Source of the DNA: Lachnospiraceae bacterium
Lineage (GTDB): Bacteria > Bacillota > Clostridia > Lachnospirales > Lachnospiraceae
Length of the DNA: 39,734 nucleotides
NCBI GenBank assembly: GCA_017635395.1
Contig: JAGBLN010000023.1
Coordinates: 1-39,734 of the forward strand
Reading direction: 5' to 3'
Part shown: positions 11,804 through 39,694 of the stretch, piece after piece
Layout: each line of letters begins with the position of its first letter
Position numbering within the stretch: position 1 is the stretch's first letter
Notes under the pieces: generated by a model
The model's input: the letters and a program-made list of their open reading frames with translations, nothing else
What the model was told of the DNA's origin: nothing
Databases searched by the model: none
Translations under genes and position numbers: made by a program

Positions 11804-13525
11804 ATGTATGAAGGTCAGAACGGTGGATTTAGTTCAAATTATTCAAATAATAATGATGACAATCCGGCCATGAATCCGAAGGTGGGGACTGTGCAGGCAG
11901 ATAACGCACATGGAGGCAGTATGGGCAGTATGCCGGATGGTAGTCCTCAGGGAAATGCGCAGGAAAGTGTAATGAGTTCATCTCAGGGAAATACACCGCA
12001 GTGGAACATGCAGGGAAGTGCGCCTCAGGGAAATACGCAGCAGTGGAGTGCACAGGGAAGCGTAATGCATGAGAGCGCGCCACAGGAGAGTTTTTCTAAT
12101 GGAGGCACTTTTCAGAGTGGACCCCAGCCTGTGAATAACGGATATGATAATAATGTGACAGGACGGTACGGTACTTTTCAGCAGAACAATCCGGATTACA
12201 GAGCTTCGCAGTATAGCTATAATCAGAGCAGAGGTAATGCGGGCGTAAATAACAATAACAGTAATGGCAGGAGTAAGGAAAAGAAACAAGGAGGTGTGAT
12301 CGGAAAAATCCTGCTGGCTGGAGCATTAGGCATAGTGTTCGGTGTGGTTGGCGGAGTGGCTTTCTGGGGCGTACAGAAAGTTGTATCTATATTTGATAAC
12401 ACCTCTGTCGCATATGTTGCCGAAGTAGAGACGGCTTCGGAACCGGCAGTTGAAGCGCAGAATGTGGCTGTAACGGGAAATGATGTATCAGATAATTTGG
12501 CGACAAATCTTACCACTAATGTAACAAACACCGTGGCATCGGATGTAAGTGATATGGTGGAAGAGACAATGCCTTCGCTTGTGTCTATAACCTCAAACAT
12601 CACTGTTGACTACTATTACTACACGGAGTCTGCTGAAGCAGGCGGATCCGGTATCATAATAGGGAAGAATGATGATGAGCTTTTAGTAGTGACCAATTAT
12701 CATGTTATTGCTGATGCAGACAGTCTTATCGTAAACTTTATAGACAATGAAAAAGCTCCTGCACAGGTAAAAGGCACCGATGAAAATATGGATCTTGCCG
12801 TAATAGCAGTTAAGCTTAGCGACATACCTTCAGATACCATGTCTGCAATAAAGATTGCCACTATGGGGGATTCGGAAAGCCTGAAAGCAGGACAGCCGGT
12901 AGTAGCCATAGGTAATGCCATGGGATACGGACTGTCGGTGACCACAGGTGTTGTAAGCGCAGTAAACCGTGAGATGAATATGGGAGATATCTCAGGTACA
13001 TTTATCCAGACAGATGCAGCCATAAATCCGGGCAATTCCGGTGGAGCCCTTTTGGATATTAACGGCAATGTGATCGGGATCAACTCCAGTAAGCTGGGTG
13101 GAATGGTCGTAGAAGGCATGGGATATGCAATCCCTATCTCGGCAGCCCAGCCTATAATAGAAAATCTCATGACACGTACCACAAGGACTCTTGTAAGCGA
13201 AGACGACAGAGGTTATCTCGGTATAGTGGGTGCAACAGTAACACCTCAGGATGCACAGTACTACGGACTTCCGGAAGGCGCCTATATTTCAAGTGTTACT
13301 CCCGGATCTGCCGCTGATAAGGCCGGTATACAGGCAGGTGACTATATAGTGGGTCTTGAGGGAATAGCCATTGATTCCATGCAGAAGCTTCAGGGTGAAC
13401 TGCAGTACTATTCTGCGGGCGATACTGTGGAAGTGGAGATCATGAGGAATGTGGGCAACAGTTATAAGAGTCTCAAGTTCAAAGTGACGCTGGATGACAA
13501 GAGTATCCTTGAAGATACGGACTGA
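11804..13525 (+). CDS. htrA: HtrA/DegP-type membrane-anchored serine protease
   Basis: A 573-residue S1C-family envelope protease/chaperone. Residues 1-160 are a cytoplasmic Gln/Asn/Gly/Ser/Met-rich tail with imperfect QGN-QW-QGS repeats; one membrane helix follows (about 165-188), then an exported Thr/Asn/Val-rich linker, the trypsin-like domain with catalytic His300 (TNYHVIADA), Asp330 (MDLAVIAV) and Ser412 (NPGNSGGALL), and one PDZ domain (about 468-560, starting GYLGIVGATV). It degrades or refolds damaged exported proteins. A GGAAAGGAAG ribosome binding site precedes the ATG. The long low-complexity cytoplasmic tail is unusual compared with typical Firmicutes HtrA, which begins close to the membrane helix. 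The gene is monocistronic, with a terminator at 13604-13632, and has possible operator sites upstream. Confidence 0.94.
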   Translation: MYEGQNGGFSSNYSNNNDDNPAMNPKVGTVQADNAHGGSMGSMPDGSPQGNAQESVMSSSQGNTPQWNMQGSAPQGNTQQWSAQGSVMHESAPQESFSNGGTFQSGPQPVNNGYDNNVTGRYGTFQQNNPDYRASQYSYNQSRGNAGVNNNNSNGRSKEKKQGGVIGKILLAGALGIVFGVVGGVAFWGVQKVVSIFDNTSVAYVAEVETASEPAVEAQNVAVTGNDVSDNLATNLTTNVTNTVASDVSDMVEETMPSLVSITSNITVDYYYYTESAEAGGSGIIIGKNDDELLVVTNYHVIADADSLIVNFIDNEKAPAQVKGTDENMDLAVIAVKLSDIPSDTMSAIKIATMGDSESLKAGQPVVAIGNAMGYGLSVTTGVVSAVNREMNMGDISGTFIQTDAAINPGNSGGALLDINGNVIGINSSKLGGMVVEGMGYAIPISAAQPIIENLMTRTTRTLVSEDDRGYLGIVGATVTPQDAQYYGLPEGAYISSVTPGSAADKAGIQAGDYIVGLEGIAIDSMQKLQGELQYYSAGDTVEVEIMRNVGNSYKSLKFKVTLDDKSILEDTD

Positions 13526-13732: not shown

Positions 13733-15262
13733 ATGAGTGATGAAATAAAGTACTGTTCAATGTGCGGCAGATCAGAAGAAGATGCGGGAATGATGATGCG
13801 TATGCCCATGGGTATGAATGTTTGCCAGAGCTGCATGGACAAACTGTCGGACATGATGGACGACCAGATGAAAAATATCCCGCCCAATGCTTCTGCGGAT
13901 CTGTCGAGGTTTATGACTCCGTATGCATTTAATCAGGCAGGCACTTCACAGACGGATGATTCCGGGGAGGATGATGCTTCTTCGGAGGAGAAAGCTCCCT
14001 TAAAGGATCTTTCGGAAGCTCCCGATGAGAAAAAAGAAGATGGTCCGGATGAAAACAAGGATAAGAAGAAGGGCTCGCCCAGGGTAAGCTTCCTTAATTT
14101 TGGAGACCTTCCCTTTGATTTCGGCGGACTCGGTGGCAGGGCAAAGGTAAAGAGGGCCAAGGAAGGCGAGGCAAAGCCTTTAATGGAACTTAAGGACATA
14201 CCTGCGCCGCATGTGATAAAGGGCATGCTTGACGAGTATGTTGTCGGTCAGGAAAAGGCTAAGAAGGTTATGAGCGTTGCAGTTTATAATCACTACAAGC
14301 GCGTGGCTACAAACACTCAGGATGAGATAGAAATCGAAAAATCAAATATGCTGATGCTTGGACCTACCGGTTCCGGAAAGACTTATCTGGTAAGGACTCT
14401 TGCAAAGATCCTGAATGTGCCACTTGCAATAACTGATGCCACGTCCCTTACGGAAGCAGGTTATATCGGCGATGATATAGAGAGCGTTGTAAGTAAGCTC
14501 CTTGCGGCAGCAGATAACGATGCGGACAGGGCAGAGCAGGGAATAATCTATATCGATGAGATAGACAAGATTGCGAAGAAGTCAAATTCACACTCAAGGG
14601 ATGTAAGCGGTGAATCCGTTCAGCAGGGAATGTTAAAGCTTCTTGAAGGTGCGGATATAGAAGTGCCTGTGGGAGCATCTTCCAAGAATGCTATGGTGCC
14701 TACTACCACCATCAACACTAGGAATATTCTGTTCATATGCGGCGGCGCTTTTCCGGGACTTGAAGAGATCATCGAGGAGAGGCTTAAGAAAACCACGTCC
14801 ATGGGCTTTACCGGTGAGATAAAGAACAAGAAAGAAAAGGATAGAAAGATCCTGCAGAAGGCTGAAACTGAGGATATCAGAAAGTTTGGTATGATTCCGG
14901 AGTTTGTAGGCCGTCTGCCTATGGTATTTGCTCTTGAAGGGCTTGATGAGGATATGCTGGTGCGTATACTTAATGAGCCCAAGAATGCCATAATCAAGCA
15001 GTACCAGAAGCTCCTTGAACTGGATGGGGTTAAGCTTGAATTTACGGAAGATGCGCTTCACCTGATCGCTGAAAAGGCCATGAAGAAGGAAACCGGCGCA
15101 AGGGCGCTTCGTTCCATACTGGATGATTATATGACGGATATAATGTACGAGATCCCGAAGGATGATAATATAGGAAAGGTTACGATAACCAAGGAATATC
15201 TGGAGGGAACAGGAGCCCCAATTATTGAGAACCGTTCTGAAAGCATACCGGTAAATCCGTAA
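13733..15262 (+). CDS. clpX: ClpX-type AAA+ unfoldase, atypical
   Basis: A 509-residue ClpX homologue, some 90 residues longer than usual. The zinc-binding domain is present (Cys8, Cys11, Cys31, Cys34), with six methionines packed between residues 20 and 28. A long acidic/lysine-rich linker (about 70-150) is inserted before the AAA+ core. The core has DEYVVGQ, Walker A GPTGSGKT (210-217), pore loop GYIG (243-246), Walker B IIYIDEIDK, a ClpP-docking-type MGF loop (357-359), arginine finger PEFVGRLP and sensor-2 GARALR. The RKH pore-entry loop used by E. coli ClpX to hold ssrA tags is not seen (ASSKNAMVP in its place). No clpP or tig lies next to it, so this may be a second, specialised ClpX; that is inference. 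It is monocistronic. Confidence 0.9.
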   Translation: MSDEIKYCSMCGRSEEDAGMMMRMPMGMNVCQSCMDKLSDMMDDQMKNIPPNASADLSRFMTPYAFNQAGTSQTDDSGEDDASSEEKAPLKDLSEAPDEKKEDGPDENKDKKKGSPRVSFLNFGDLPFDFGGLGGRAKVKRAKEGEAKPLMELKDIPAPHVIKGMLDEYVVGQEKAKKVMSVAVYNHYKRVATNTQDEIEIEKSNMLMLGPTGSGKTYLVRTLAKILNVPLAITDATSLTEAGYIGDDIESVVSKLLAAADNDADRAEQGIIYIDEIDKIAKKSNSHSRDVSGESVQQGMLKLLEGADIEVPVGASSKNAMVPTTTINTRNILFICGGAFPGLEEIIEERLKKTTSMGFTGEIKNKKEKDRKILQKAETEDIRKFGMIPEFVGRLPMVFALEGLDEDMLVRILNEPKNAIIKQYQKLLELDGVKLEFTEDALHLIAEKAMKKETGARALRSILDDYMTDIMYEIPKDDNIGKVTITKEYLEGTGAPIIENRSESIPVNP

Positions 15263-15516: not shown

Positions 15517-17391
15517 ATGAAAGTTTTTAAGAGGTATTGGCGTGGTATTGTTTTTGCTGCGGTATTTTTTGTCATGCTTTTTTTTAGGACAGGGAATACG
15601 GCTGCTGCTGACCTTGAGCAGTCGCCGGATGTGGTGAGCATGGAAATAGTCCATGAGCATGATGATGAAACATGTACAAAGGAGGTCTGGATTCCCTGTG
15701 GCGGAAGCTGGAGGGATGACCACCATGGTTCCCACAGAATCCACTATTGCACAAATCAGAAATCCGAGGAGATAGTAAATGGACATAGCCTGTCTGAAAT
15801 ACATTATGGGGACTGGTACTGGGGCTACTCAACGGAGGAACATCATGCCGGCGAATATGTCACTGAACCGGACTGTGACCTGTCAACAATAGGATTTTTT
15901 GAAATAAAAAGGACAGAGGATGAAGATGGCATACACCTGACAGCAGGTACCAGAGTAACGGATGCGGATCTCGGTGACTACACCATAAGCTGGGACGACG
16001 GAACAGCGGGCGGTGTAAATTCATCCGTAATGATAGACGTGGATACGAGGCGGACTTATACTGCTACGATCAGATGGCATGATGTGAAGAGGAATGCAGA
16101 TTTTACTGATTCCTTAAGTTATACTGACATTTCTTATCCGTGCAGGTGTGAGTTTGTTTCTGATGATGCTGTGGTCGAAGAAATAAAAATCCGCTGCGGA
16201 GAAAGTCCGGATGCTGTGGATGTCCCGGTGAAAAAGGGCCATATATTTGATGGATATTATAAGGATGATGTACAGTGGATAGATCAGGAGGGCAATCCTA
16301 CAGAAAATTTTATTATCAGCCAGTCAGATTATGATTTGTCTCTGGCTGCTAAGTGGCTGGCAAAAACTTACGAGCTGAAGATAGGAAATGAGATTTTAAC
16401 TTTTGTATATGGCGAGCCTTACGGTGATATTGATGCTGCCGCCCTTGGGCTGCAAAAAGAGGGTTATGAGTTTAGCGGCGTGAGGATTGAAGGAGAAGTT
16501 ATTTTTGACGAAGACGGGAAAGCGGCAGGAGACGGAGTCTGGAAATGGGACGTTTCAGAAGAAGTTACGGCTGAGATACTCTGGGATGAAATACCAGAGG
16601 AAACAGATGAGTATGAGAATGATGATGATCATCACCGGCATCATGAACATGTAGAAGATAAAGAAAAAGAAGACGCGTATGAGGAGCCTGCGGAAACAGT
16701 CATTCTGGCGGTTTCGGATGACCGGTGTGAAGCAGCAGATCCATACGTTGATGTTGTGGCAGACGAATCGCTGCTTGAAGATAATGATGACGAAGACTGT
16801 CCTGTTGTGGCTGATGCCAGTTCCGAAAACAGCAGCGGGGATGGCCCGGAGGAAAATGTGGAAAATGTGCCGATTGAATCAGTCGGCGTAAATCTGCCTT
16901 TTATAGAGCTGTTCCAGGCAGAAAACAATGACGAGCCTCTTACGGAAGAATATTCTGCCGCTGACGAAGAAGACAAGCGGCCGGACAGTGGGGAAAGTTT
17001 TAAAGAAAAGGCATCTCCGTCGGTATGGATAAAAAGGGTAATGGTGGTGACTGCTGTTGCCTGTGGCGTGGTCGGCGGCGGTACAGCGGCAGTGTACGCA
17101 GTGTATGCTGGCTTCGTGTACCTCTTTGGAATGGCGTCGGTGATGAATGTGCTTCCGGATGGCCGTAAGAAAAATCTCGGCAAACTGACAGTTTCGGACA
17201 GATCCGGCGGAGACATGGAGATAAATATCCCGCAGAACTTTGTGGATAACTGTAGTACCGGAAATATAGAGATAGTCATGCCGGAGATGTTTGTAAAAAA
17301 GAGGGACAGGAAGCAGCTGGTAGTGATTGTAAATGAAAAGAAATACCTGAAGAATATAAAAAAGAATGTAGAGTTAAAGCTGTTCTCATAA
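15517..17391 (+). CDS. exported, membrane-anchored His/Cys-rich protein with InlB-like repeat
   Basis: I recognise only the architecture of this 624-residue protein. It has a signal peptide (1-31, basic start then a hydrophobic core ending NTAAA). The ectodomain begins with a His/Cys-rich part (EHDDETC, CGGSWRDDHHGSHRIHYC), continues with an InlB/Listeria-Bacteroides (Flg_new) type repeat around residues 220-285 (KGHIFDGYYK, LAAKW), and then a very acidic stretch of some 130 residues with a DDDHHRHHEH patch. A membrane helix (about 507-535) leads to a basic cytoplasmic tail of about 85 residues rich in beta-branched residues. GGAGG precedes the ATG. The His and Cys clusters could bind metal and the repeat could bind a partner; both are inference. 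It is transcribed alone between clpX and rpmE. Confidence 0.8.
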   Translation: MKVFKRYWRGIVFAAVFFVMLFFRTGNTAAADLEQSPDVVSMEIVHEHDDETCTKEVWIPCGGSWRDDHHGSHRIHYCTNQKSEEIVNGHSLSEIHYGDWYWGYSTEEHHAGEYVTEPDCDLSTIGFFEIKRTEDEDGIHLTAGTRVTDADLGDYTISWDDGTAGGVNSSVMIDVDTRRTYTATIRWHDVKRNADFTDSLSYTDISYPCRCEFVSDDAVVEEIKIRCGESPDAVDVPVKKGHIFDGYYKDDVQWIDQEGNPTENFIISQSDYDLSLAAKWLAKTYELKIGNEILTFVYGEPYGDIDAAALGLQKEGYEFSGVRIEGEVIFDEDGKAAGDGVWKWDVSEEVTAEILWDEIPEETDEYENDDDHHRHHEHVEDKEKEDAYEEPAETVILAVSDDRCEAADPYVDVVADESLLEDNDDEDCPVVADASSENSSGDGPEENVENVPIESVGVNLPFIELFQAENNDEPLTEEYSAADEEDKRPDSGESFKEKASPSVWIKRVMVVTAVACGVVGGGTAAVYAVYAGFVYLFGMASVMNVLPDGRKKNLGKLTVSDRSGGDMEINIPQNFVDNCSTGNIEIVMPEMFVKKRDRKQLVVIVNEKKYLKNIKKNVELKLFS

Positions 17392-29243: not shown

Positions 29244-30077
29244 ATGATAAAGGGATTGAGAAAGGTAGTAGACCATAAGGCTTTTCAGGGATTTATACTG
29301 TTTGTCATAGTATTTAATTCCATAGTAATGGGTGTGGAGACTATATCCGGCCTGTCTGATAGAGTCCTGCTGGTACTGGGGCTGATCAACAACATCTGTC
29401 TCTGGATATTTATAATAGAGATGCTGCTTAAATTCCTGGCCTACGGCATGGATTATTTCAAGGATCCCTGGAACTGGTTTGATATGATCATCATCGGAAC
29501 ATCCCTGGTATCTGCACTTCCGTTTATGGCAGCCCTTCGTGCATTCAGGGTTCTCAGGGTATTAAGGTCGCTTAAGGCCCTGCGCAGTATGAGGCTTGTA
29601 AGCTCCATACACCATCTTCAGATAATACTTGTTGCAATAGTAAGGTCCGTTCCAAGTATACTGTGGACTGGACTCCTTATGATACTGATCTATTATATCT
29701 TTGCTCTTATTGGAGTTAATCTGTTTGGGGAAGCTTTTCCGGACTGGTTTGGTACCATCGGAAAGGCTATGTATACACTGTTCCAGGTAATGACTCTGGA
29801 AAGCTGGTCCATGGGTATAAGCAGGCCGGTTATGGAAGTGTACTCGGCAGCATGGCTGTATTTTGTACCTTTTGTACTGATATCTTCCTTTATCGTCATG
29901 AATGTAGTTGTAGGTATAGTGGTAAATTCCATCAGCGAGGTTACTGCTGAAGACACAAAAAAGGAAGAAGAGGAAAATGCAGAGACAGATGAGGACAGAA
30001 TAAAGGCACTGACTGCGGAAGTAAAGGAAATGCGTGAGATGCTGGCCCGTATGGAGCAGATGCTTGATAAAAAATAA
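29244..30077 (+). CDS. voltage-gated sodium channel, NaChBac/NavAb type
   Basis: A 277-residue subunit of a homotetrameric bacterial voltage-gated cation channel; length matches the family. S1-S4 form a voltage sensor, with S4 carrying basic residues every third position (R99, R102, R105, R108, K111, R114, R117), more than the four gating arginines of NavAb. S5-S6 surround the selectivity filter TLESWSM (184-190, Glu186 as the field-strength site), identical to the NavAb filter and pointing to Na+ over Ca2+. EAFPDWFGTIGKAMYTLFQV before it and RPVMEVY after it also match NavAb. The C-terminus (about 235-277) is an acidic neck and a heptad coiled coil (MREMLARMEQML), as in the known tetramerisation domain. 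AGGAG precedes the ATG at about 10 bp. Confidence 0.95.
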   Translation: MIKGLRKVVDHKAFQGFILFVIVFNSIVMGVETISGLSDRVLLVLGLINNICLWIFIIEMLLKFLAYGMDYFKDPWNWFDMIIIGTSLVSALPFMAALRAFRVLRVLRSLKALRSMRLVSSIHHLQIILVAIVRSVPSILWTGLLMILIYYIFALIGVNLFGEAFPDWFGTIGKAMYTLFQVMTLESWSMGISRPVMEVYSAAWLYFVPFVLISSFIVMNVVVGIVVNSISEVTAEDTKKEEEENAETDEDRIKALTAEVKEMREMLARMEQMLDKK

Positions 30078-30190: not shown

Positions 30191-30220
30191 GGATCCGCCC
30201 TTTTGGGGCGGATCCTTTTT
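30191..30220 (+). terminator. terminator upstream of the ClpX-like pair
   Basis: Perfect 10-bp arms GGATCCGCCC (30191-30200) and GGGCGGATCC (30206-30215), loop TTTTG, tail TTTTT. It isolates the following operon from upstream transcription. Confidence 0.9.
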
Positions 30221-30222
30221 CC

Positions 30223-30251
30223 TTGCACCCGTTTTTCTAAAATAGTAAAAT
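30223..30251 (+). promoter_or_regulatory. promoter of the ClpX-like operon, probably giving a leaderless mRNA
   Basis: TTGCAC (30223-30228), exactly 17 bp, TAAAAT (30246-30251). A start site 7-8 bases downstream falls on or next to the ATG at 30259. No ribosome binding site is visible between the -10 and that ATG. Confidence 0.6.
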
Positions 30252-30258
30252 ATAGCTT

Positions 30259-31812
30259 ATGATAGACATATTTAAGCAGCTAAATTATGAAAACGGAATT
30301 GATCCCGGGACTAAGACAGATGATTCGGGGATGACGGTACTGACGTCGTATATAGTGAGAAGGGTTGTTTCATCCACTGATTTTTCATTGTCTGAAAGGA
30401 TCGGCGATTCTAAGAGCATTGCAGACATAATATATAAGGAAAATGAGGACAGCATCAATTATCTTGAGATGCTTTATTTTAGGGTAATAGAGGATAAATC
30501 CATTGAACCTAATAAGCGCAACCTTTTGGAACTTCTGGAAAAACTTGAAAGCGACCTGGAATACAATAGTGAAATATTTGGAAAAAGGGCCAGCTTTGTA
30601 ATGGATTTTATTGAGGCAGATACCTTTAGGCATGCGCTGAATAAAAGCTCGAATGAGTTTGAGTGCAGGGTGTTGGGACGCATCAGGGAGCTGCGCCTGC
30701 TGTATTTTAATGTATCTGAAAGCAGCAAGAAGGGCAAGCAGACACCGGTGGAGATCAAAGCCTATCTGGACCGTTTTATCATAGGACAGCAAGATGCAAA
30801 GATGTCGGTGTCCGTAGCAGCCTATGGCCATGGCAAGAGAGTAAGGCATCCGGACGTTAATTTTACGCCTGATGTAGTGCTGCTGATAGGGCTTACCGGA
30901 TGCGGTAAGACTGAGATCATGCGCCGGATAAAGGAAATCACGGGATATCCTATGGTATTTACGGATGTTTCTAATTTAGGAGCCAGCCAGTTCCGGGGCC
31001 GTCATAAGGAAGATATTCTTCTGGATCTGTACGAGGATGCAGGAAAGGACATGAAGCGCGCTGAACGAGGCATAGTCTTCATGGATGAGTTTGACAAGCT
31101 TCTTCTGCCGGCGTTCTCAGACAGAGGCGTGGATATGCATGATGACGTCCAGTCCCAGCTGCTTACGATGCTTGAAGGCAGCGAAGTAGAAATCAAAAGC
31201 GGTAACAAAAACCTAAGGATGAATACTTCAAGGATACTTTTTGTGCTGGCCGGAGCATTTCAGGGGCTTGAGGAATACATCAAGAACGATAAGCGCAAAA
31301 AGGATAAGATAGGCGGAAGCATGGGTTTCAATGCATCTCTGGATAAGGATGTGGATACGGAATTCATACGGGAGAATATCAGCCACGAGATACTTATGGC
31401 GTACGGCATGAAGCGTGAGCTGGCAGGACGTATATCTGCAATAGCAGTTCTTGAAAAGCTTACAGAAGAGGATATGTTCAGGATACTGCGTGATCCGGAG
31501 GAAAGCCTCCCGGAACTATATGCAAGGGAAATAGAGCTGTCCTGCGGAGCCAAGCTTGAGTTTACTGAAGAGGCATTAAGGCTGATAGCCAAGAAGGCCG
31601 CTGAGCTTCCTGTTGGCGCCAGGGCCCTCAGGGTGATACTTGGGGAAATAATGCTGCCCATAAGGTATGATGCTCCTGGGCTTAAGAACGTGAAGATCAT
31701 AAGGATAACTGAAGATACCGTGGCAAACGGCACCGCACCGGAATATATATCTGGAAGCGGGGACGGGAACAAGCCCTTAAGCGAGCTTGTGCGTCAGTAT
31801 GGTGAGAGATGA
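30259..31812 (+). CDS. divergent ClpX-like AAA+ ATPase, first of a tandem pair
   Basis: A 517-residue AAA+ protein. The C-terminal 350 residues match the ClpX unfoldase core: YLDRFIIGQ (from about 170), Walker A GLTGCGKT (211-218), Walker B IVFMDEFDK (Asp276, Glu277), RILFVLAGAFQGLEEY, a ClpP-docking-type loop SMGFN (M355-F357), arginine finger ELAGRISA and sensor-2 GARALR. The N-terminal 164 residues replace the zinc-binding domain of ClpX with a helical domain I do not recognise. The pore loop is QFRG (F245, R246) instead of GYVG, and no RKH loop is seen. It shares a 4-bp ATGA overlap with the next ClpX-like gene. Likely an ATP-driven unfoldase with special clients, possibly with ClpP; this is inferred. 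No ribosome binding site precedes the ATG. Confidence 0.88.
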   Translation: MIDIFKQLNYENGIDPGTKTDDSGMTVLTSYIVRRVVSSTDFSLSERIGDSKSIADIIYKENEDSINYLEMLYFRVIEDKSIEPNKRNLLELLEKLESDLEYNSEIFGKRASFVMDFIEADTFRHALNKSSNEFECRVLGRIRELRLLYFNVSESSKKGKQTPVEIKAYLDRFIIGQQDAKMSVSVAAYGHGKRVRHPDVNFTPDVVLLIGLTGCGKTEIMRRIKEITGYPMVFTDVSNLGASQFRGRHKEDILLDLYEDAGKDMKRAERGIVFMDEFDKLLLPAFSDRGVDMHDDVQSQLLTMLEGSEVEIKSGNKNLRMNTSRILFVLAGAFQGLEEYIKNDKRKKDKIGGSMGFNASLDKDVDTEFIRENISHEILMAYGMKRELAGRISAIAVLEKLTEEDMFRILRDPEESLPELYAREIELSCGAKLEFTEEALRLIAKKAAELPVGARALRVILGEIMLPIRYDAPGLKNVKIIRITEDTVANGTAPEYISGSGDGNKPLSELVRQYGER

Positions 31813-33365
31813 ACAAAGTTTTCTCAAAAACAGATCCGAAGGAAATTTCGGATTATATTGCCTCTGAAGTCAGGGGATACCTGGAATGCATGGGGGATAC
31901 GGATGGGGTATTAATTGATAACCCTGCGCTTATAGTGGATTACCTTACCCTTGTAGTCTATTATCTTGTAAAAATCAGGCCGCGTAGCGACCATACCATC
32001 GACAGTATGTGCAAGCTTATGGGGGCCAGCTACTTTGAGGAAGGCAGGCGTACGCCGTTCTGGGCAATAATCTCAGAAATATCAGCAACCTATAAGAATG
32101 ACCCTGTATTTGCCGACGGCGCGAATCTCGAAGAAGAGATAACCAATGAAGACATTGATCAGTGCTTTGAATTTATAGAGTACGAGATCATATTTGTTGA
32201 TGATGACAAGCAGCAGGATTCCCATCTGGGGATGATTTCTGTCTGCAAGGTCAAGTACAACCGCAGCGCCAGGCCACCCAAGCTGTCCAAGGAAAGGCTT
32301 AATATCGGCAAAGGCAGGGACAATGTCTACCGGCAACAGTTCAAACGGTTTCTGGAGATCATGACGCCTGAAAGCATAAAAATGTATCTGGACCGGTATG
32401 TAGTAGGGCAGGATGAGACGAAGAAAATCTTAAGCACTGCCGTATATAATCACTACCTGCGCCTGGCATATCCTGAAGCAAAGATCATAAAGACAAACAT
32501 ACTTATGGTAGGGCCTACGGGAAGCGGCAAGACTGAAATGATACGCCGCATATCCAATCTGGTAAGCGTGCCTGTTGTGGTAACTGATTTCAGCGGAATT
32601 GTAGCTACCCCATGGAAGGGTCGCAATAAGGAAGAAGCTCTCACCACTCTCTATGAAAGAGCAGGAAGGAATCTTGAAATGGCTCAGAGCGGCATTGTAT
32701 TTTGCGATGAGTTTGATAAGATTGTGCCGGCAAAAAGGTATTCAAGAGGCGGCGATATAAATGATGAGCTACAGGGCCAGCTTTTGGGCATGCTTGAGGG
32801 GACTGAGCTTGATGTACCGGCTGGCGGGTCCTCTATCATAAGGATGGATACTTCCAACATACTTTTCGTGTGCGCAGGAGCATTTGAGGGCCTGGACAAG
32901 ATCGTTGAAAAAGATATAGGAAAGTCTGGCATAGGCTTTGGCAGTGAAGTAAAGAAACCCGAGGGATTTCAGCTGACCCGTGATAATCTTGACCAGAAGC
33001 ATCTCATAAAATACGGCATGAAGCCGGAGCTTGCGGGCAGGCTACATACGGTAGGCGTTTTGAACAAGCTTACCAGGGAACAGTTAAAGTGCATACTTAC
33101 GGAAGCTGATGATAATGTGATAAAGCGGTACGAAAATGAGTTCAGGGAAGAAGAGGACGTAAAGCTGACATTTACCGATGAGGCCCTGGATGTGATAATT
33201 GAAAAGGTACTGAATATGGATATCGGTGCCAGGGGGCTCAACTCCGTAATACACGACATCCTGAAAGTTCCGCTTTTTGAAGTGCCGTCAGACAGGAATA
33301 TACGAGAGGTGACGGTAACCGGTGCCGCTGCCAGGGGTGAAGGCAAGCCGGAATATTCATACTGA
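31809..33365 (+). CDS. divergent ClpX-like AAA+ ATPase, second of a tandem pair
   Basis: A 518-residue AAA+ protein related to the preceding one but clearly distinct. The ClpX-type core starts at about residue 188 (SIKMYLDRYVVGQ) with Walker A GPTGSGKT (235-242), Walker B IVFCDEFDK (Asp300, Glu301), SNILFVCAGAFEGLDK, an IGF loop exactly like the ClpP-docking tripeptide of ClpX (GIGFG, I375-F377), arginine finger ELAGRLHT and sensor-2 GARGLN. The pore loop is PWKG (W269, K270), again aromatic-basic. The 187-residue N-domain is helical, zinc-free, and shares spacing and a few positions with that of its neighbour (for example a Tyr/Asn-rich stretch near residues 85-105). The ATG overlaps the upstream stop by 4 bp, so the two products should be made in matched amounts and may form a mixed hexamer (inference). 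Confidence 0.88.
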   Translation: MNKVFSKTDPKEISDYIASEVRGYLECMGDTDGVLIDNPALIVDYLTLVVYYLVKIRPRSDHTIDSMCKLMGASYFEEGRRTPFWAIISEISATYKNDPVFADGANLEEEITNEDIDQCFEFIEYEIIFVDDDKQQDSHLGMISVCKVKYNRSARPPKLSKERLNIGKGRDNVYRQQFKRFLEIMTPESIKMYLDRYVVGQDETKKILSTAVYNHYLRLAYPEAKIIKTNILMVGPTGSGKTEMIRRISNLVSVPVVVTDFSGIVATPWKGRNKEEALTTLYERAGRNLEMAQSGIVFCDEFDKIVPAKRYSRGGDINDELQGQLLGMLEGTELDVPAGGSSIIRMDTSNILFVCAGAFEGLDKIVEKDIGKSGIGFGSEVKKPEGFQLTRDNLDQKHLIKYGMKPELAGRLHTVGVLNKLTREQLKCILTEADDNVIKRYENEFREEEDVKLTFTDEALDVIIEKVLNMDIGARGLNSVIHDILKVPLFEVPSDRNIREVTVTGAAARGEGKPEYSY

Positions 33366-33389
33366 AAATAGCGGGAAGAGGAACGCTGC

Positions 33390-35141
33390 ATGAATAAGAA
33401 AATAGGAAAATTACAGATTGCAATACTTCTTTCGACAGTGCTGCCCATGCTTGCAATGGGCTGTATCATAGTGGCTTTTGCAATTAGGCACTATGAGGGC
33501 GTATTCGTGGATGAAGTTGACCGGTCATTAAAGGCGACGGCTAATTCCGTGCTGGTGACCTATGACGAGCTGTATCCCGGTGACTATGTGCTGCAGGGGG
33601 AAGGGTCTGCGTATGTCTCTCTTTATAAAGGCGAAAAAGAGCTGACAGGAGAATTCGAAATAATCGACAGGATGAAAGAGGAAACCGGCATGGAAGTAAC
33701 CCTCTTCTATAAGGATGCCCGCATCCTGACTACTCTGCGCGATAAGGACGGTAACCGGTGTGTGGCTACCGGCGTAAACGGTGCTGTGTATTCAGCTATG
33801 GAAAGAGAAGACGATGCGCTGCGTTTCAGGGCTGACATAAACGGTACTGACTATTATGTGTGCTATATCCCGCTTTATAACAGTGACGGAACCTTTATAG
33901 GTATGATAGGTACCGGAAGGAAGGCAACGGAGGTGTTGGCTGAGATCAACGGTTCAATTATCCCCATGCTTATCGTTACCATACTTTCAATGCTTGTGGC
34001 ATCTATAATCAGCATACGCTATACTACCGGCATTGTTTCAGCTGTAGGGGACATTAAGTCCTTCCTGCAGACCGTAATAGGCGGTAAGGTAGATGCAGTC
34101 ATGAATGAGCGGACTCAGAAGCGTAACGATGAGATCGGTGAGACAGGCGCTGCTGTGGTCAAGATGCGTGACGTGCTCCGTGTCATGGTGGAGAAGGATC
34201 CCCTCACTCTGCTTTATAACAGGCGTTACGGTACAGGACGAATGAAGAATGTTCAGGCATCATTCCTGCGTACAGGCCAGCCTTTTGCAATGGCCATCGG
34301 CGACATCGATTTTTTCAAGAAAGTTAATGATACTTACGGTCATGATGCCGGTGACGAAATACTTAAGTTCGTTGCGGAAGAACTGCGTAAGATGATGCTG
34401 GGCTGCGGATTTGCTGTCAGATGGGGCGGCGAGGAATTCCTGCTGGTATTTGAAACTGCGGATGTGAATACTGCACGCGGTAAGATTGAGACCCTGCTTG
34501 AAAAACTCAGAAAAAGTACTATCTCATATGGCGATTACAATATAAATGTGACCATGACTATGGGCCTTGTTGCAGGCAATGCGGACCTGGATGTAAATGA
34601 TCTCATAAAGAGAGCAGACGCAGGGCTGTATTACGGTAAGGAACACGGCAGGAACCAGCTGGTACTCTGCGATGAACTGACGGATGAAGACCTTGCGGCT
34701 GCAGCGAAAAAGGATGCCGGTACGGCAGCGGCAAAGAAGGAAAAAGAAGATGCCGAGGCAGCAAAAACTGACAAGGGAGACACAGCAGAGGCTGGTGATA
34801 AAAATGTTTCCGCTGAGGAAGAAGAATATGATATCATGAAAGAGTTCGGCCTCAATCCGGATGGTACGCCTATGAAAAAGCCTGACGTATATTCTGCCGG
34901 AAATGACGATACCAACGAGCTGCTTATGGAAGAACTGGCAAGATCCAAAGCCCGTAAGACAGTTGTTGATGTAAAGGCTAAGAAGCCCTTCATGAAGGTG
35001 GAAGAAAAAACAGAGGCAGAATCCATAATGGCATCATTCAGCGCGCAGGTGGTTAAAAATGCTGAAGAAGGCATTATAGCAGCTGAAGATCCTGAAACAG
35101 AGGCTGGCGAGCAAAAAAAAGACAAAAAAAAGAAAAAATAG
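33390..35141 (+). CDS. membrane GGDEF protein with extracellular sensor and charged tail
   Basis: A 583-residue probable diguanylate cyclase. Order: membrane helix (about 9-31), Cache-like extracellular sensor (about 32-185), second helix (about 190-210), HAMP-like linker (about 212-265), and GGDEF domain (about 272-425) with IGDIDFFKKVNDTYGH and the active site GGEEF (346-350). No RxxD inhibitory site stands upstream of GGEEF, so classic product inhibition is not expected. After the domain comes a tail of some 150 residues rich in Ala, Lys, Glu and Asp, ending in a lysine run; this is unusual. It lies 24 bp after the second ClpX-like gene with AGAGGAA before the ATG, so it is the third gene of that operon. 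The tail could be a recognition or binding region for the unfoldases (inference). Confidence 0.9.
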   Translation: MNKKIGKLQIAILLSTVLPMLAMGCIIVAFAIRHYEGVFVDEVDRSLKATANSVLVTYDELYPGDYVLQGEGSAYVSLYKGEKELTGEFEIIDRMKEETGMEVTLFYKDARILTTLRDKDGNRCVATGVNGAVYSAMEREDDALRFRADINGTDYYVCYIPLYNSDGTFIGMIGTGRKATEVLAEINGSIIPMLIVTILSMLVASIISIRYTTGIVSAVGDIKSFLQTVIGGKVDAVMNERTQKRNDEIGETGAAVVKMRDVLRVMVEKDPLTLLYNRRYGTGRMKNVQASFLRTGQPFAMAIGDIDFFKKVNDTYGHDAGDEILKFVAEELRKMMLGCGFAVRWGGEEFLLVFETADVNTARGKIETLLEKLRKSTISYGDYNINVTMTMGLVAGNADLDVNDLIKRADAGLYYGKEHGRNQLVLCDELTDEDLAAAAKKDAGTAAAKKEKEDAEAAKTDKGDTAEAGDKNVSAEEEEYDIMKEFGLNPDGTPMKKPDVYSAGNDDTNELLMEELARSKARKTVVDVKAKKPFMKVEEKTEAESIMASFSAQVVKNAEEGIIAAEDPETEAGEQKKDKKKKK

Positions 35142-35158
35142 TGTAAAATTGTATACAT

Positions 35159-35238
35159 GCGGGTGTGGTGGAATTGGCAGACACGCAAGATTTAGGTTCT
35201 TGTGCGAAAGCGTGCAGGTTCAAGTCCTGTCACCCGCA
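35159..35238 (+). tRNA. tRNA-Leu (anticodon TAG)
   Basis: Acceptor arms GCGGGTG (35159-35165) and CACCCGC (35231-35237), discriminator A (35238). The anticodon loop TTTAGGT gives TAG (35193-35195). The variable arm is short for a leucine tRNA (TGCGAAAGCG region) and the T-arm has TTCAAGT. CCA is not encoded. It starts 17 bp after the GGDEF stop and may be read through from that operon, or use a TAAAAT at 35144-35149. Confidence 0.93.
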
Positions 35239-37846: not shown

Positions 37847-39694
37847 TTATTTCAGCAGTTTCTCGACTTCACGCTTATATGCATCCATGTCGGCACCATA
37901 AACGGTGCTGCCTACTATATTGCCTTCCCTGTCTATGAAATATGTGGTGGGAACAGCGGAAACCTCGTTCATCAGTTTTGCAAGTCCGTCCTTGGGGATC
38001 AGATTTGTGTAAGTGACTCCGGTATCCTTTACTATGCTCTGGGCCTCGCTGATATAGTAGGAGTCGTTTTCATCCTGTATGTCACAGACGATGCCGATGA
38101 TGTTTACATTGGAAGGCATGGATTCATACCATTCCTGGAGCTCCGGCATCTCCACTATGCAGTAGTAGCAGAAGGTTCCCCACACATTTACTACAGTAAT
38201 ATCATACTGAGAGAAGATGTCATCGCTTACTGTGTTTCCGTAGATGTCTTTTGTCTCGAAAGTAAATCTGGGATCGGCAGGCTCGAAGTCAGCTACGGGC
38301 TCAGGTGTTTCGTCATCTTCATCTGTGTCATCATCAGGCAGTACATCGTCCGTTCCGTCTGTGTTCTGATCAGCCATTCCATCAACACTGTTTACGGTGC
38401 CGATAAAAACCGGAACCCCGGTTTCCAGATCTATTATGGCATAGGCAAAGGGGCGGTCAAGGTAGACTTCTTTGTATTCCACAGGATCAGCAACGGCCAT
38501 TGCCCTGTCCATTTCAACTACCGTGGCGGCAGCGGCTTTTGTGCCATACTGATCAAGCTCGATATGGGTCTTGTGTATGACCTTTGATATATAAAGGTTC
38601 TCGTCTTTTAACTCCGCGATGTTTGAAAAGTCCGCATCATCCGGAGAAAAAGCATCATCAGCCCCCATTTCCTTCAGGGTATCGTTCATTAGATACTCAT
38701 AGTCATAGCTGAACTTGGGGATTATGGTGCGTACATCCCATTTATCTGTTTTGCTGTCATAGAACTTACGGTAGTCATCAGCGGTAAATTCTGCCATAAA
38801 GTCGTTAGCACTTATCTTTTCCTTGGGGAGTATCGCAAGGAAGGCGTATTCGTTGCCATAGTAAGGTTTCATGAATCCAACGGCCTTGTCTGATTCAAAG
38901 TAAGTATCACCGGTTTCTGCAAGATAGACTGCATCTTCACTTTCACCATTGGCATTAGTGAAATCATTTTCATGAACCTGATAATCTTCATAGGGTTCAG
39001 CCCATTCACCCTCAAATGCCAGGGCGTTTACAAGTACCGCAGCAGCCAGAGGATCCAGGTCCTGTATGACTGTAGGTATCATATGGTTCGTGTTATCATC
39101 GATCCAGCCGTTTATTTCATCGATGGTATCAGGACCAAAAGCCGATTCATTTATCTCTGCTTGATAGCTGTCATTAACATAGTCTGTGAAATCTTTGTTA
39201 ATCTTTCCGGTAAGAATGGTGGAGTTGAGCCATATGGAATTGGCTGAATGGAGTTCTACTCCCTTTGCGTTGTTGAGTCTGTCGTGATAGTCAATGGCAA
39301 AATGCTGGACTTCCATCGGCTCTACGGGATCCAGGCCCTTAAGCAGTCCGCTTATCTCTTCCAGGGTGGTGCCCCTTCCGCCGGCAGCAGTCATTTCAAG
39401 TGCAATGAATGCTGAGGTGGGGGAGATCATGATATTTTCGTTTTCCCCGCCTTTAGCGACGGTATTTCCGTACAGGTCAAAGGAATAGTTAAGGTAGGCA
39501 TTTTTTATTGCATCCTCATCATAGGGAGTGTTCCTGACATTATCGAATTCTATGGCGGCTCCGGTGCCTTTTTCAGACAAAAAAGATCCGCCTTTTGACG
39601 GATCCGTATCTTCAGCATTTATGTCAGAGCAGCCGATGGCACAGAGCCCCAGTGTAGCAGACAGAAGAAGTGCCATGATCTTTCTGTTTTTCAT
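37847..39694 (-). CDS. serpin-thioredoxin fusion lipoprotein
   Basis: A 615-residue exported protein with two known domains not usually joined. The signal peptide ends in AIGC, so Cys22 is probably lipid-modified. Residues about 60-425 are a serpin (protease inhibitor): NIMISPTSAFIALEMTAAGG, the breach-type segments, the hinge GTKAAAATVVEM (from Gly384) leading into the reactive loop, and RPFAYAI at its end. The loop between hinge and RPF is about six residues longer than in alpha-1-antitrypsin. An acidic linker (about 430-465) follows, then a TlpA/ResA-type thioredoxin domain with WGTFCYYC (Cys509, Cys512) and the cis-proline segment AVPTTYFID. GGGAGGAAA precedes the ATG. It may inhibit proteases at the cell surface while exchanging electrons with the membrane partner encoded next; this link is inference. 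Confidence 0.92.
   Translation of the reverse strand: MKNRKIMALLLSATLGLCAIGCSDINAEDTDPSKGGSFLSEKGTGAAIEFDNVRNTPYDEDAIKNAYLNYSFDLYGNTVAKGGENENIMISPTSAFIALEMTAAGGRGTTLEEISGLLKGLDPVEPMEVQHFAIDYHDRLNNAKGVELHSANSIWLNSTILTGKINKDFTDYVNDSYQAEINESAFGPDTIDEINGWIDDNTNHMIPTVIQDLDPLAAAVLVNALAFEGEWAEPYEDYQVHENDFTNANGESEDAVYLAETGDTYFESDKAVGFMKPYYGNEYAFLAILPKEKISANDFMAEFTADDYRKFYDSKTDKWDVRTIIPKFSYDYEYLMNDTLKEMGADDAFSPDDADFSNIAELKDENLYISKVIHKTHIELDQYGTKAAAATVVEMDRAMAVADPVEYKEVYLDRPFAYAIIDLETGVPVFIGTVNSVDGMADQNTDGTDDVLPDDDTDEDDETPEPVADFEPADPRFTFETKDIYGNTVSDDIFSQYDITVVNVWGTFCYYCIVEMPELQEWYESMPSNVNIIGIVCDIQDENDSYYISEAQSIVKDTGVTYTNLIPKDGLAKLMNEVSAVPTTYFIDREGNIVGSTVYGADMDAYKREVEKLLK

Follow-up and report, generated by a model that had tools for sequence, protein, structure and literature searches.

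We describe a three-gene unit of a Lachnospiraceae bacterium in which two ClpX-derived AAA+ ATPases, here called A and B, are followed by a predicted diguanylate cyclase, G. The unit lies in contig JAGBLN010000023.1 (assembly GCA_017635395.1); the whole 39,734-nucleotide stretch of this contig that was analysed is referred to as the window. Gene A (30259..31812, + strand) encodes 517 amino acids (aa), gene B (31809..33365, +) 518 aa and gene G (33390..35141, +) 583 aa. It is well supported by the sequences that A and B are a paired, re-specialised ClpX motor, presumably active. We propose that they make up a genus-specific, probably mixed-ring unfoldase of the ClpX type, which is co-expressed with the diguanylate cyclase and serves the regulated degradation or remodelling of client proteins; we give this reading a probability of about 0.5. 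It builds on gene order, motifs, changes in the pore and RKH loops, common origin, co-inheritance and restriction to one genus of those sampled, all of which were read from the sequences. The A and B frames share an ATGA stop/start overlap of 4 base pairs (bp; 31809..31812, +), and G follows after a gap of 24 bp in the window, exactly as given in an initial annotation of this DNA.

ClpX-derived ATPases with a full catalytic set

Pfam domains AAA_2 and ClpB_D2-small were detected in both A and B. Their best NCBIfam models were those of ClpX (NF003745 / TIGR00382; E 4e-71 and 2e-86), with scores of 240.2 and 214.0 bits for A and 290.7 and 264.2 bits for B, below the curated cut-offs of 359 and 370.75. 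The second, zinc-finger ClpX of the window, X (13733..15262, +), scored 554.3 and 494.7 bits on the same models. The cut-off of the HslU model (362.45) was not reached by A (131.7) or B (135.4). The zinc domain zf-C4_ClpX (PF06689) was found by Pfam in X and in neither A nor B, in keeping with the initial annotation, which had both ATPases lacking it. Walker A/B, the sensor-1 region, the arginine finger and sensor-2 were present in all aligned rows (33/33 for A and 30/30 for B, counts that each take in two divergent rows from the A'B' pairs described below), so that the catalytic motifs noted in the window copies are intact throughout.

A and B are thus like ClpX in the AAA+ core, the catalytic motifs, the IGF docking loop and the C-terminal small domain; they differ from it in lacking the zinc domain and the RKH loop, in pore-1, in their novel helical N-domains and in being two paired paralogues. 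Four ClpX-like genes were identified in the genome of the window, which is 72.6% complete: A, B, X and a housekeeping copy beside ClpP. The presence of X and of the housekeeping ClpX, the change in pore-1, the loss of RKH and the sCache_3_3 domain of G are additions to the initial annotation.

Pore-1, RKH and docking loops

In the ClpX structure, Tyr153 and Val154 of pore-1 pack against the substrate, the RKH loops touch the substrate above the pore, and the side chains of I268 and F270 in the docking loop pack into clefts of ClpP (PMC7112951, in part). The pore-1 loop of A reads ASQFRGRHKED (residues 242-252; 30982..31014, +) and that of B ATPWKGRNKEE (32604..32636, +). Across the alignments, the ClpX motif GY[VI]G is replaced by [YF]RGR in A and W[KR]GR in B, an aromatic-basic type as in ring 1 of Hsp100 proteins: [YF]RGRH was found in 31/33 rows of A and W[KR]GRN in 29/30 rows of B, while pore-1 of X reads GYIGDD in 27/27 rows. 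Two Hsp100-type frames of the same genome have loops reading KYRGEFEER and RYRGEFEER. An aromatic followed by a basic residue (KYR) is the known translocating pore-1 of nucleotide-binding domain 1 (NBD1) in the Hsp100 proteins ClpA, ClpB and Hsp104 (PMC6546751, PMC9663308, both in part). A and B share this feature with the class I NBD1; they differ from Hsp100 proteins in having a single AAA+ ring of ClpX descent. When the loops are aligned, the glutamates through which ClpB makes its cross-loop contacts, E254 and E256 (PMC6546751, in part), correspond to R at +3 and K at +5 in A and B. The collar would therefore be more basic still than that of ClpB, and we infer that this alters the choice of clients.

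The RKH loop is shortened in the alignment of A and B, and the motif is lost from it. The string RKH occurs in 0/33 rows of A, 1/30 of B, 0/27 of X and 3/3 of housekeeping ClpX; the sole B row has it before the AAA domain, outside the loop. Since X also lacks RKH, its loss is by itself nothing special. Docking loops of the IGF type, which the initial annotation had recognised as M/IGF loops of the ClpP-docking kind, were found in A (GGSMGFN; 31312..31332, +) and B (SGIGFGSE; 32925..32948, +), and they are kept as x-G-F/Y in 33/33 rows of A and as hydrophobic-G-F in 27/30 rows of B.

N-terminal domains

The N-domains of A (residues 1-163; 30259..30747, +) and B (residues 1-187; 31809..32369, +) are helical in AlphaFold2 models built from 33 and 30 sequences, with a mean predicted local distance difference test score of 77 and 83, respectively. 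They had been described as long helical domains of unrecognised type, and this description stands. Foldseek searches of the PDB gave no significant fold match (best E 2.4 for A and 2.3 for B); with the B N-domain, the only one compared with the viral library, the best E was 0.56. Sequence matches in Pfam, PHROGs and the PDB were weak and scattered, none reaching the curated cut-off where one is shown, and no known adaptor domain was found among them. They include ribosomal S7e in 6/19 A members (best E 0.007) and Spo0E-like in 1/19 (E 0.003), and the unannotated phrog_36809 in 1/30 B members (E 3e-4). DUF4240, in 6/19 B members (best E 0.002), is perhaps worth a second look. Homology of the two N-domains to each other was not accepted (hhalign E 0.01, probability 4%).

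A weak lead is the resemblance of B residues 42-97 to the all-alpha domain of VirD4-type coupling proteins (hhalign probability 84% over 56 columns). With coupling proteins picked independently of B, the score was 37.7, compared with 32.9 for the best of 100 block-shuffled controls; the match was stronger when sequences chosen as B matches were included, and without them it weakened, yet it stayed above the shuffles. In a set of 505 ORFs (open reading frames), again with the independent coupling proteins, the B proteins came directly below the one true coupling protein, at E 0.001 to >0.1. Coupling proteins were considered only after matches to B had been seen. The likeness was not found in the B' copies (E 29 and 33) or in the A N-domain, and coupling-protein families were found neither in the Pfam scans of the N-domains nor among the 50 Foldseek matches listed.

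Conservation within the genus

The genus sample comprised 35 genomes, the genome of the window and 34 others. A with an adjoining B was detected in 31 of them, with a G orthologue downstream in all 31; A was never found apart from B. Over the matched stretch, identity of A to the window copy is 52-62% in 27 of the 30 other genomes, and because the A-B-G arrangement is kept despite this divergence it is not a matter of chance. Rather than being limited to one genome with frequent loss of either ATPase, the order is the common state of the genus, and B is broken in a single case (G022, L065), where a 282-aa frame is left after a break in the N-terminal part and A and G are open; this is either an assembly error or decay. 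In G005 (L045), a 504-aa ORF lies in the roughly 1.8 kb that separate B from G; this ORF was considered as a further ClpX and rejected, being not ClpX-like and having no Pfam match.

A and B are missing from G013 (94% complete), G014 (99%), G023 (77%) and G033 (67%), and their absence is informative only for the first two. Both of these retain X and G, and no remnant of A or B was found by tblastn in the stretches examined. Between X and the cyclase, G013 has 2.5 kb of AT-rich DNA (L061 10138-12681) free of ORFs of at least 120 aa, with TTATGTAAAC-like words recurring by eye; in relatives this place is occupied by A and B.

The unit was also viewed at 18 named public loci, titled Lachnospiraceae in 17 cases and Bacillota in one, with rumen or omasum in nine titles. 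All 18 show A-B-G on one strand. A and B are spaced by -77 to 0 bp at all 18, where the longer overlaps vary with the start that is assumed; for B and G the range is -4 to +70 bp at 17/18, and 3/18 have a 4-bp overlap. In flanks of at most 8 kb, X lies upstream of A in 12/18 loci, with HtrA before X in six, and a MATE gene lies 3' of G in 10/18, as listed with overlapping ORFs. In the clade of the window (window, L034-L036), the A-B-G block has different flanks on both sides; in the window itself HtrA, X and MATE are about 15 kb or more away from it.

Distribution and ancestry

Among the genera sampled, A-B-G appears to be limited to one. The search of N-domains and gene order across Lachnospiraceae genomes that had been suggested for this locus was run here, and it found the unit in this single genus. 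The family, order, class and phylum samples overlap. A profile of the B N-domain matched 3 of 397 family genomes (334 genera), namely G000, G002 and, weakly, a coupling protein of G103. A wider B profile matched 6 of 291 genomes of the class: the genome of the window and five weak matches, four of them reading as coupling proteins; one match of this search, L089, is an AAA protein. The A profile matched 2 of 392 genomes of the order, both within the genus; after rows had been added to it, it matched 1 of 299 genomes of the phylum. When full-length A was compared with the 397 family genomes, with up to three candidates scored in each, two or three matches were obtained in most of them; among the matches listed, none outside the genus exceeded 206 bits, and A and B of G000 and G002 scored at least 253. 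Of the ten best loci in other genera, typed without a zinc-finger scan, eight were X-type and two housekeeping-type. X is therefore wider than the genus, and A and B are seemingly restricted to it.

Second, diverged A'B' pairs were identified elsewhere in the chromosomes of G009 (L057 740-3783) and G010 (L058 6103-9201), both of which also have a complete A-B-G. Neither pair has a G orthologue behind it. One precedes a 757-aa protein without Pfam match; the other is beside a phage-integrase-family gene, and about 2.5 kb from a GGDEF gene that is not G and encodes 364 aa. A maximum-likelihood tree was built from 57 AAA+ domains selected from the 93 rows. In it A, A', B and B' come together as one clade (support 100/100), which has a long stem (1.68) and contains neither X nor housekeeping ClpX; A and B therefore derive from one ClpX-like ancestor that split. 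X forms a separate clade (100/96) that includes other genera. A' groups with A (100/100) and B' lies outside B+A (89/77), the exact placement of both being unsure on these long branches.

Gene G

G is a membrane protein with an sCache_3_3 sensor and a GGDEF domain (PF00990, 116 bits against a cut-off of 23.8). Its active-site motif GGEEF is invariant in 18/18 aligned orthologues, and G is predicted to be a diguanylate cyclase. RxxD is the inhibition-site motif of GGDEF proteins; by eye, none precedes GGEEF in G. The charged C-terminal tail is acidic in all 28 orthologues read (net charge -9 to -40), a comparison made among G orthologues. By eye, a helix-like stretch (LDSENLMQLLSDNA-like) recurs in similar form at the end of many tails. 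The tail was considered as a degron specific to A and B, and such specificity found no support: a similar acidic tail with a helix-like end is present in G014, which lacks both ATPases.

Proposed ring assembly, ClpP use and link to c-di-GMP

In the proposed mechanism, A and B are probably translated in a coupled fashion from a single mRNA, and a hexamer containing both subunits is the most likely assembly. ATP hydrolysis by this ring is predicted, and it would pull polypeptides by the aromatic-basic collar of [YF]RGR and W[KR]GR loops in place of the Tyr-Val collar of ClpX. With the zinc domain and the RKH loops gone, client recruitment would fall to the two novel helical N-domains, and the IGF loops are predicted to dock the ring on housekeeping ClpP. 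It would be co-expressed with a Cache-sensing membrane diguanylate cyclase, and the likeliest role is the regulated degradation or remodelling of a few clients as part of a response at the envelope or surface in which cyclic di-GMP (c-di-GMP) rises as well. We infer the single transcript, the mixed ring, the ClpP partner, the clients and any direct action on c-di-GMP from the features described above.

Rate covariation was assessed from pairwise distances at 19 loci with complete A, B, X and G, using 2000 permutations. Given X and G, A and B covaried with a partial r of 0.70 (p 0.0005, the smallest possible). The value was 0.22 for A and G (p 0.025), 0.16 for B and G (p 0.067) and 0.13 for A and X (p 0.09). 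Between domains, it was 0.59 for the two AAA parts, 0.75 for the B N-domain with the A AAA part and 0.15 for the A N-domain with the B AAA part. The G tail gave 0.35 with the A N-domain, 0.13 with that of B and 0.09 with that of X; the GGDEF domain gave 0.12 with the A N-domain and, with fewer controls, 0.57 with the B N-domain. The X and A N-domains gave 0.06. Covariation favours A going with B and is not specific; as a proof of an A-B complex the mirror-tree was demoted, since the N-domain of X covaries with that of B too.

Several observations count against the proposal. The N-domains of X and B covary at 0.47, which makes the test unspecific, and those of A and B at only 0.24; G covaries with X (0.47, p 0.0005) more than with A or B. 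The docking loop of B is altered in both B' copies (QGF, GSF) and in B of G016 (DSF), and the IGF loops are an inheritance from ClpX and as such no proof of ClpP use. Homohexamers of A or of B, or mixing with X, may occur. G is kept without A and B in G013 and G014, and the A'B' pairs of G009 and G010 are without G; the parts are therefore separable, and neither needs the other everywhere.

Membership of A and B in one mixed ring is nevertheless likely on these sequences, as a hetero-oligomer is favoured by their being kept, lost and re-paired together. The coupled translation from which a hetero-oligomer had originally been suggested is here joined by co-retention in 31/31 genomes and joint absence from G013 and G014. 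Two separate homohexamers with different clients would suit the full catalytic set of each protein and N-domains whose profiles compare at a probability of only 4%; we consider this unlikely, however, for proteins that occur only as a pair, are absent together, are re-paired at second sites, are translationally coupled and covary. On balance, use of the housekeeping ClpP by such a ring is somewhat more likely than not. One strong ClpP copy was found in each of 17 genomes searched, beside housekeeping ClpX in 16 (in G013 the housekeeping ClpX was not among the matches listed), and in G004, G027 and G028, which are 99-100% complete and carry A and B, the copy beside housekeeping ClpX is the only ClpP. 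A ClpP reserved for A and B is therefore not the rule, and if they do use ClpP they would have to share it. Should A and B be a chaperone for remodelling or disaggregation that does not need ClpP, the basic pore could be seen as a disaggregase-like adaptation; the likeness of pore-1 to the NBD1 loop of ClpB and ClpA (KYRGEFEER in the same genome; PMC6546751, in part) and the lack of a ClpP gene in the A-B-G locus would agree with this. However, the docking loop is conserved despite wide divergence, and ClpA has a KYR loop yet works with ClpP (PMC9663308, in part), so that a chaperone of this kind seems improbable.

The coupling to c-di-GMP claimed by the initial annotation gains from the conserved A-B-G operon and is weaker than was claimed, given that G and A/B are separable and that A-B covariation is above that of A-G and B-G. 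A functional tie of the ATPases to the cyclase, resting on operon conservation, is accordingly put forward as tentative, at slightly less than even odds. It is also quite possible, though well short of even odds, that the heteromeric unfoldase is unrelated to c-di-GMP, with G, in the same way as MATE, X and HtrA, no more than a conserved member of a stable gene neighbourhood. The genomes that retain G without A/B, the A'B' pairs without G, the MATE gene after G in 10/18 loci and the weak A-G and B-G covariation are in its favour; A-B-G in 31/31 genomes, the intact block away from MATE and X in the clade of the window and the 4-bp B-G overlap in 3/18 loci are not. A bolder version of the tie, which we consider speculative and of small probability, would have the mixed ring, with its Hsp100-like pore, grip the acidic tail of G and destroy or reset G via ClpP, making surface signal, c-di-GMP synthesis and proteolytic shut-off one unit, with a B N-domain borrowed from a conjugation coupling protein for client recognition. 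A mobile or defence module, for instance a Dodola-like one, is very unlikely. DolB of Dodola is a ClpX-like ATPase, and PADLOC matches to DolB were obtained for A (residues 151-281, E 3e-10) and B (residues 156-307, E 4e-8), with a further match of B to PDC-M37B (E 4e-9); one A'B' pair, as noted, is beside a phage-integrase-family gene. However, the DolB matches are of partial length and far surpassed by NCBIfam ClpX, and the A-B-G neighbourhood is common to many genomes of the genus. G had no PADLOC match, the DolA partner being sought in G alone. Listed phage and plasmid matches fall mainly over the AAA part (32-40% identity). A viral origin was rejected: a scan of viral contigs with the B N-domain, that of A not being scanned, gave 23 pattern matches and no copy or relative.

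Comparison with known systems

ClpX usually forms homohexamers that have a single type of zinc domain and of pore chemistry. Heteromeric AAA+ rings are known from m-AAA and Pex1/Pex6, and from the Rpt subunits of the proteasome (PMC4514846, in part). With these A and B would share the use of paralogous subunits in one ring; they differ in being bacterial, of the ClpX type and two in number, and their mixed ring is a proposal from sequence. Myxococcus xanthus has several ClpX genes, among them ClpX3 without zinc N-domain and RKH motif (PMC11423568, in part). In these losses it is like A and B, but it is an isolated gene, and the likeness, taken from its description, implies no relationship.

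In Caulobacter, proteolysis of PdeA joins c-di-GMP signalling to ClpXP, which works there with delivery proteins, not with dedicated ClpX paralogues in a cyclase operon. Also in this organism PopA, a c-di-GMP-binding GGDEF protein, helps to bring CtrA to ClpXP (PMC3764195, in part). Both are like the present proposal in that c-di-GMP signalling meets ClpXP proteolysis, and the joining of the two, which had been thought new for this locus, is thus an established idea; what would be new are dedicated ClpX paralogues in one operon with a cyclase. No report of Lachnospiraceae ClpX paralogues or of a ClpX homolog in a diguanylate cyclase operon was found in the open-access literature searched, and no such pair in open-access titles and abstract beginnings on clpX1/clpX2, heterohexamers (12 of 142 entries) and zinc-less ClpX, subscription journals being outside both searches. 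Open-access papers that mention strain NK4A179 deal, by their titles, with different subjects.

How an essential protease motor becomes re-specialised would be seen in a natural pair of this sort, whose N-domains have been replaced and whose pore collar has been converted. A and B would serve as a small bacterial model of heteromeric AAA+ rings, and nature would have provided in them a comparison of Tyr-Val and Tyr-Arg grip on the scaffold of ClpX. Should there be a tie to the neighbouring cyclase, they would represent a dedicated protease for c-di-GMP signalling.

Neighbouring genes

A hairpin followed by a T-run, resembling an intrinsic terminator, lies just 5' of A (30191..30225, +; hairpin 30191-30215, with an 11-pair stem including 8 GC). 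A tRNA-Leu starts at 35159, 17 bases past the stop codon of G. Directly upstream of A is a single-domain channel of the voltage-gated type (29244-30077; Ion_trans, E 1e-49), with a TLESWS motif as in bacterial sodium channels. At 8/18 named loci a large surface-type protein directly precedes A; such proteins were seen in the window (15517-17391) and in L048-L051 and L060, some relatives having weak Listeria-Bacteroides repeats.

An HtrA-type trypsin-PDZ protease (11804..13525, +) lies 5' of X, as a neighbour outside the claimed A-B unit. An HtrA match also adjoins the X-type gene in 3/10 short loci of other Lachnospiraceae genera (L080, L083, L085), which suggests an HtrA-ClpX2 unit wider than the genus. 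Near the end of the window (37847-39694, -), a 615-aa protein was identified in which a serpin (PF00079, E 3e-77) is fused with a redoxin/thioredoxin-like domain (PF00578). By eye its start is lipoprotein-like, and a similar ORF is present downstream in L034 and L035.

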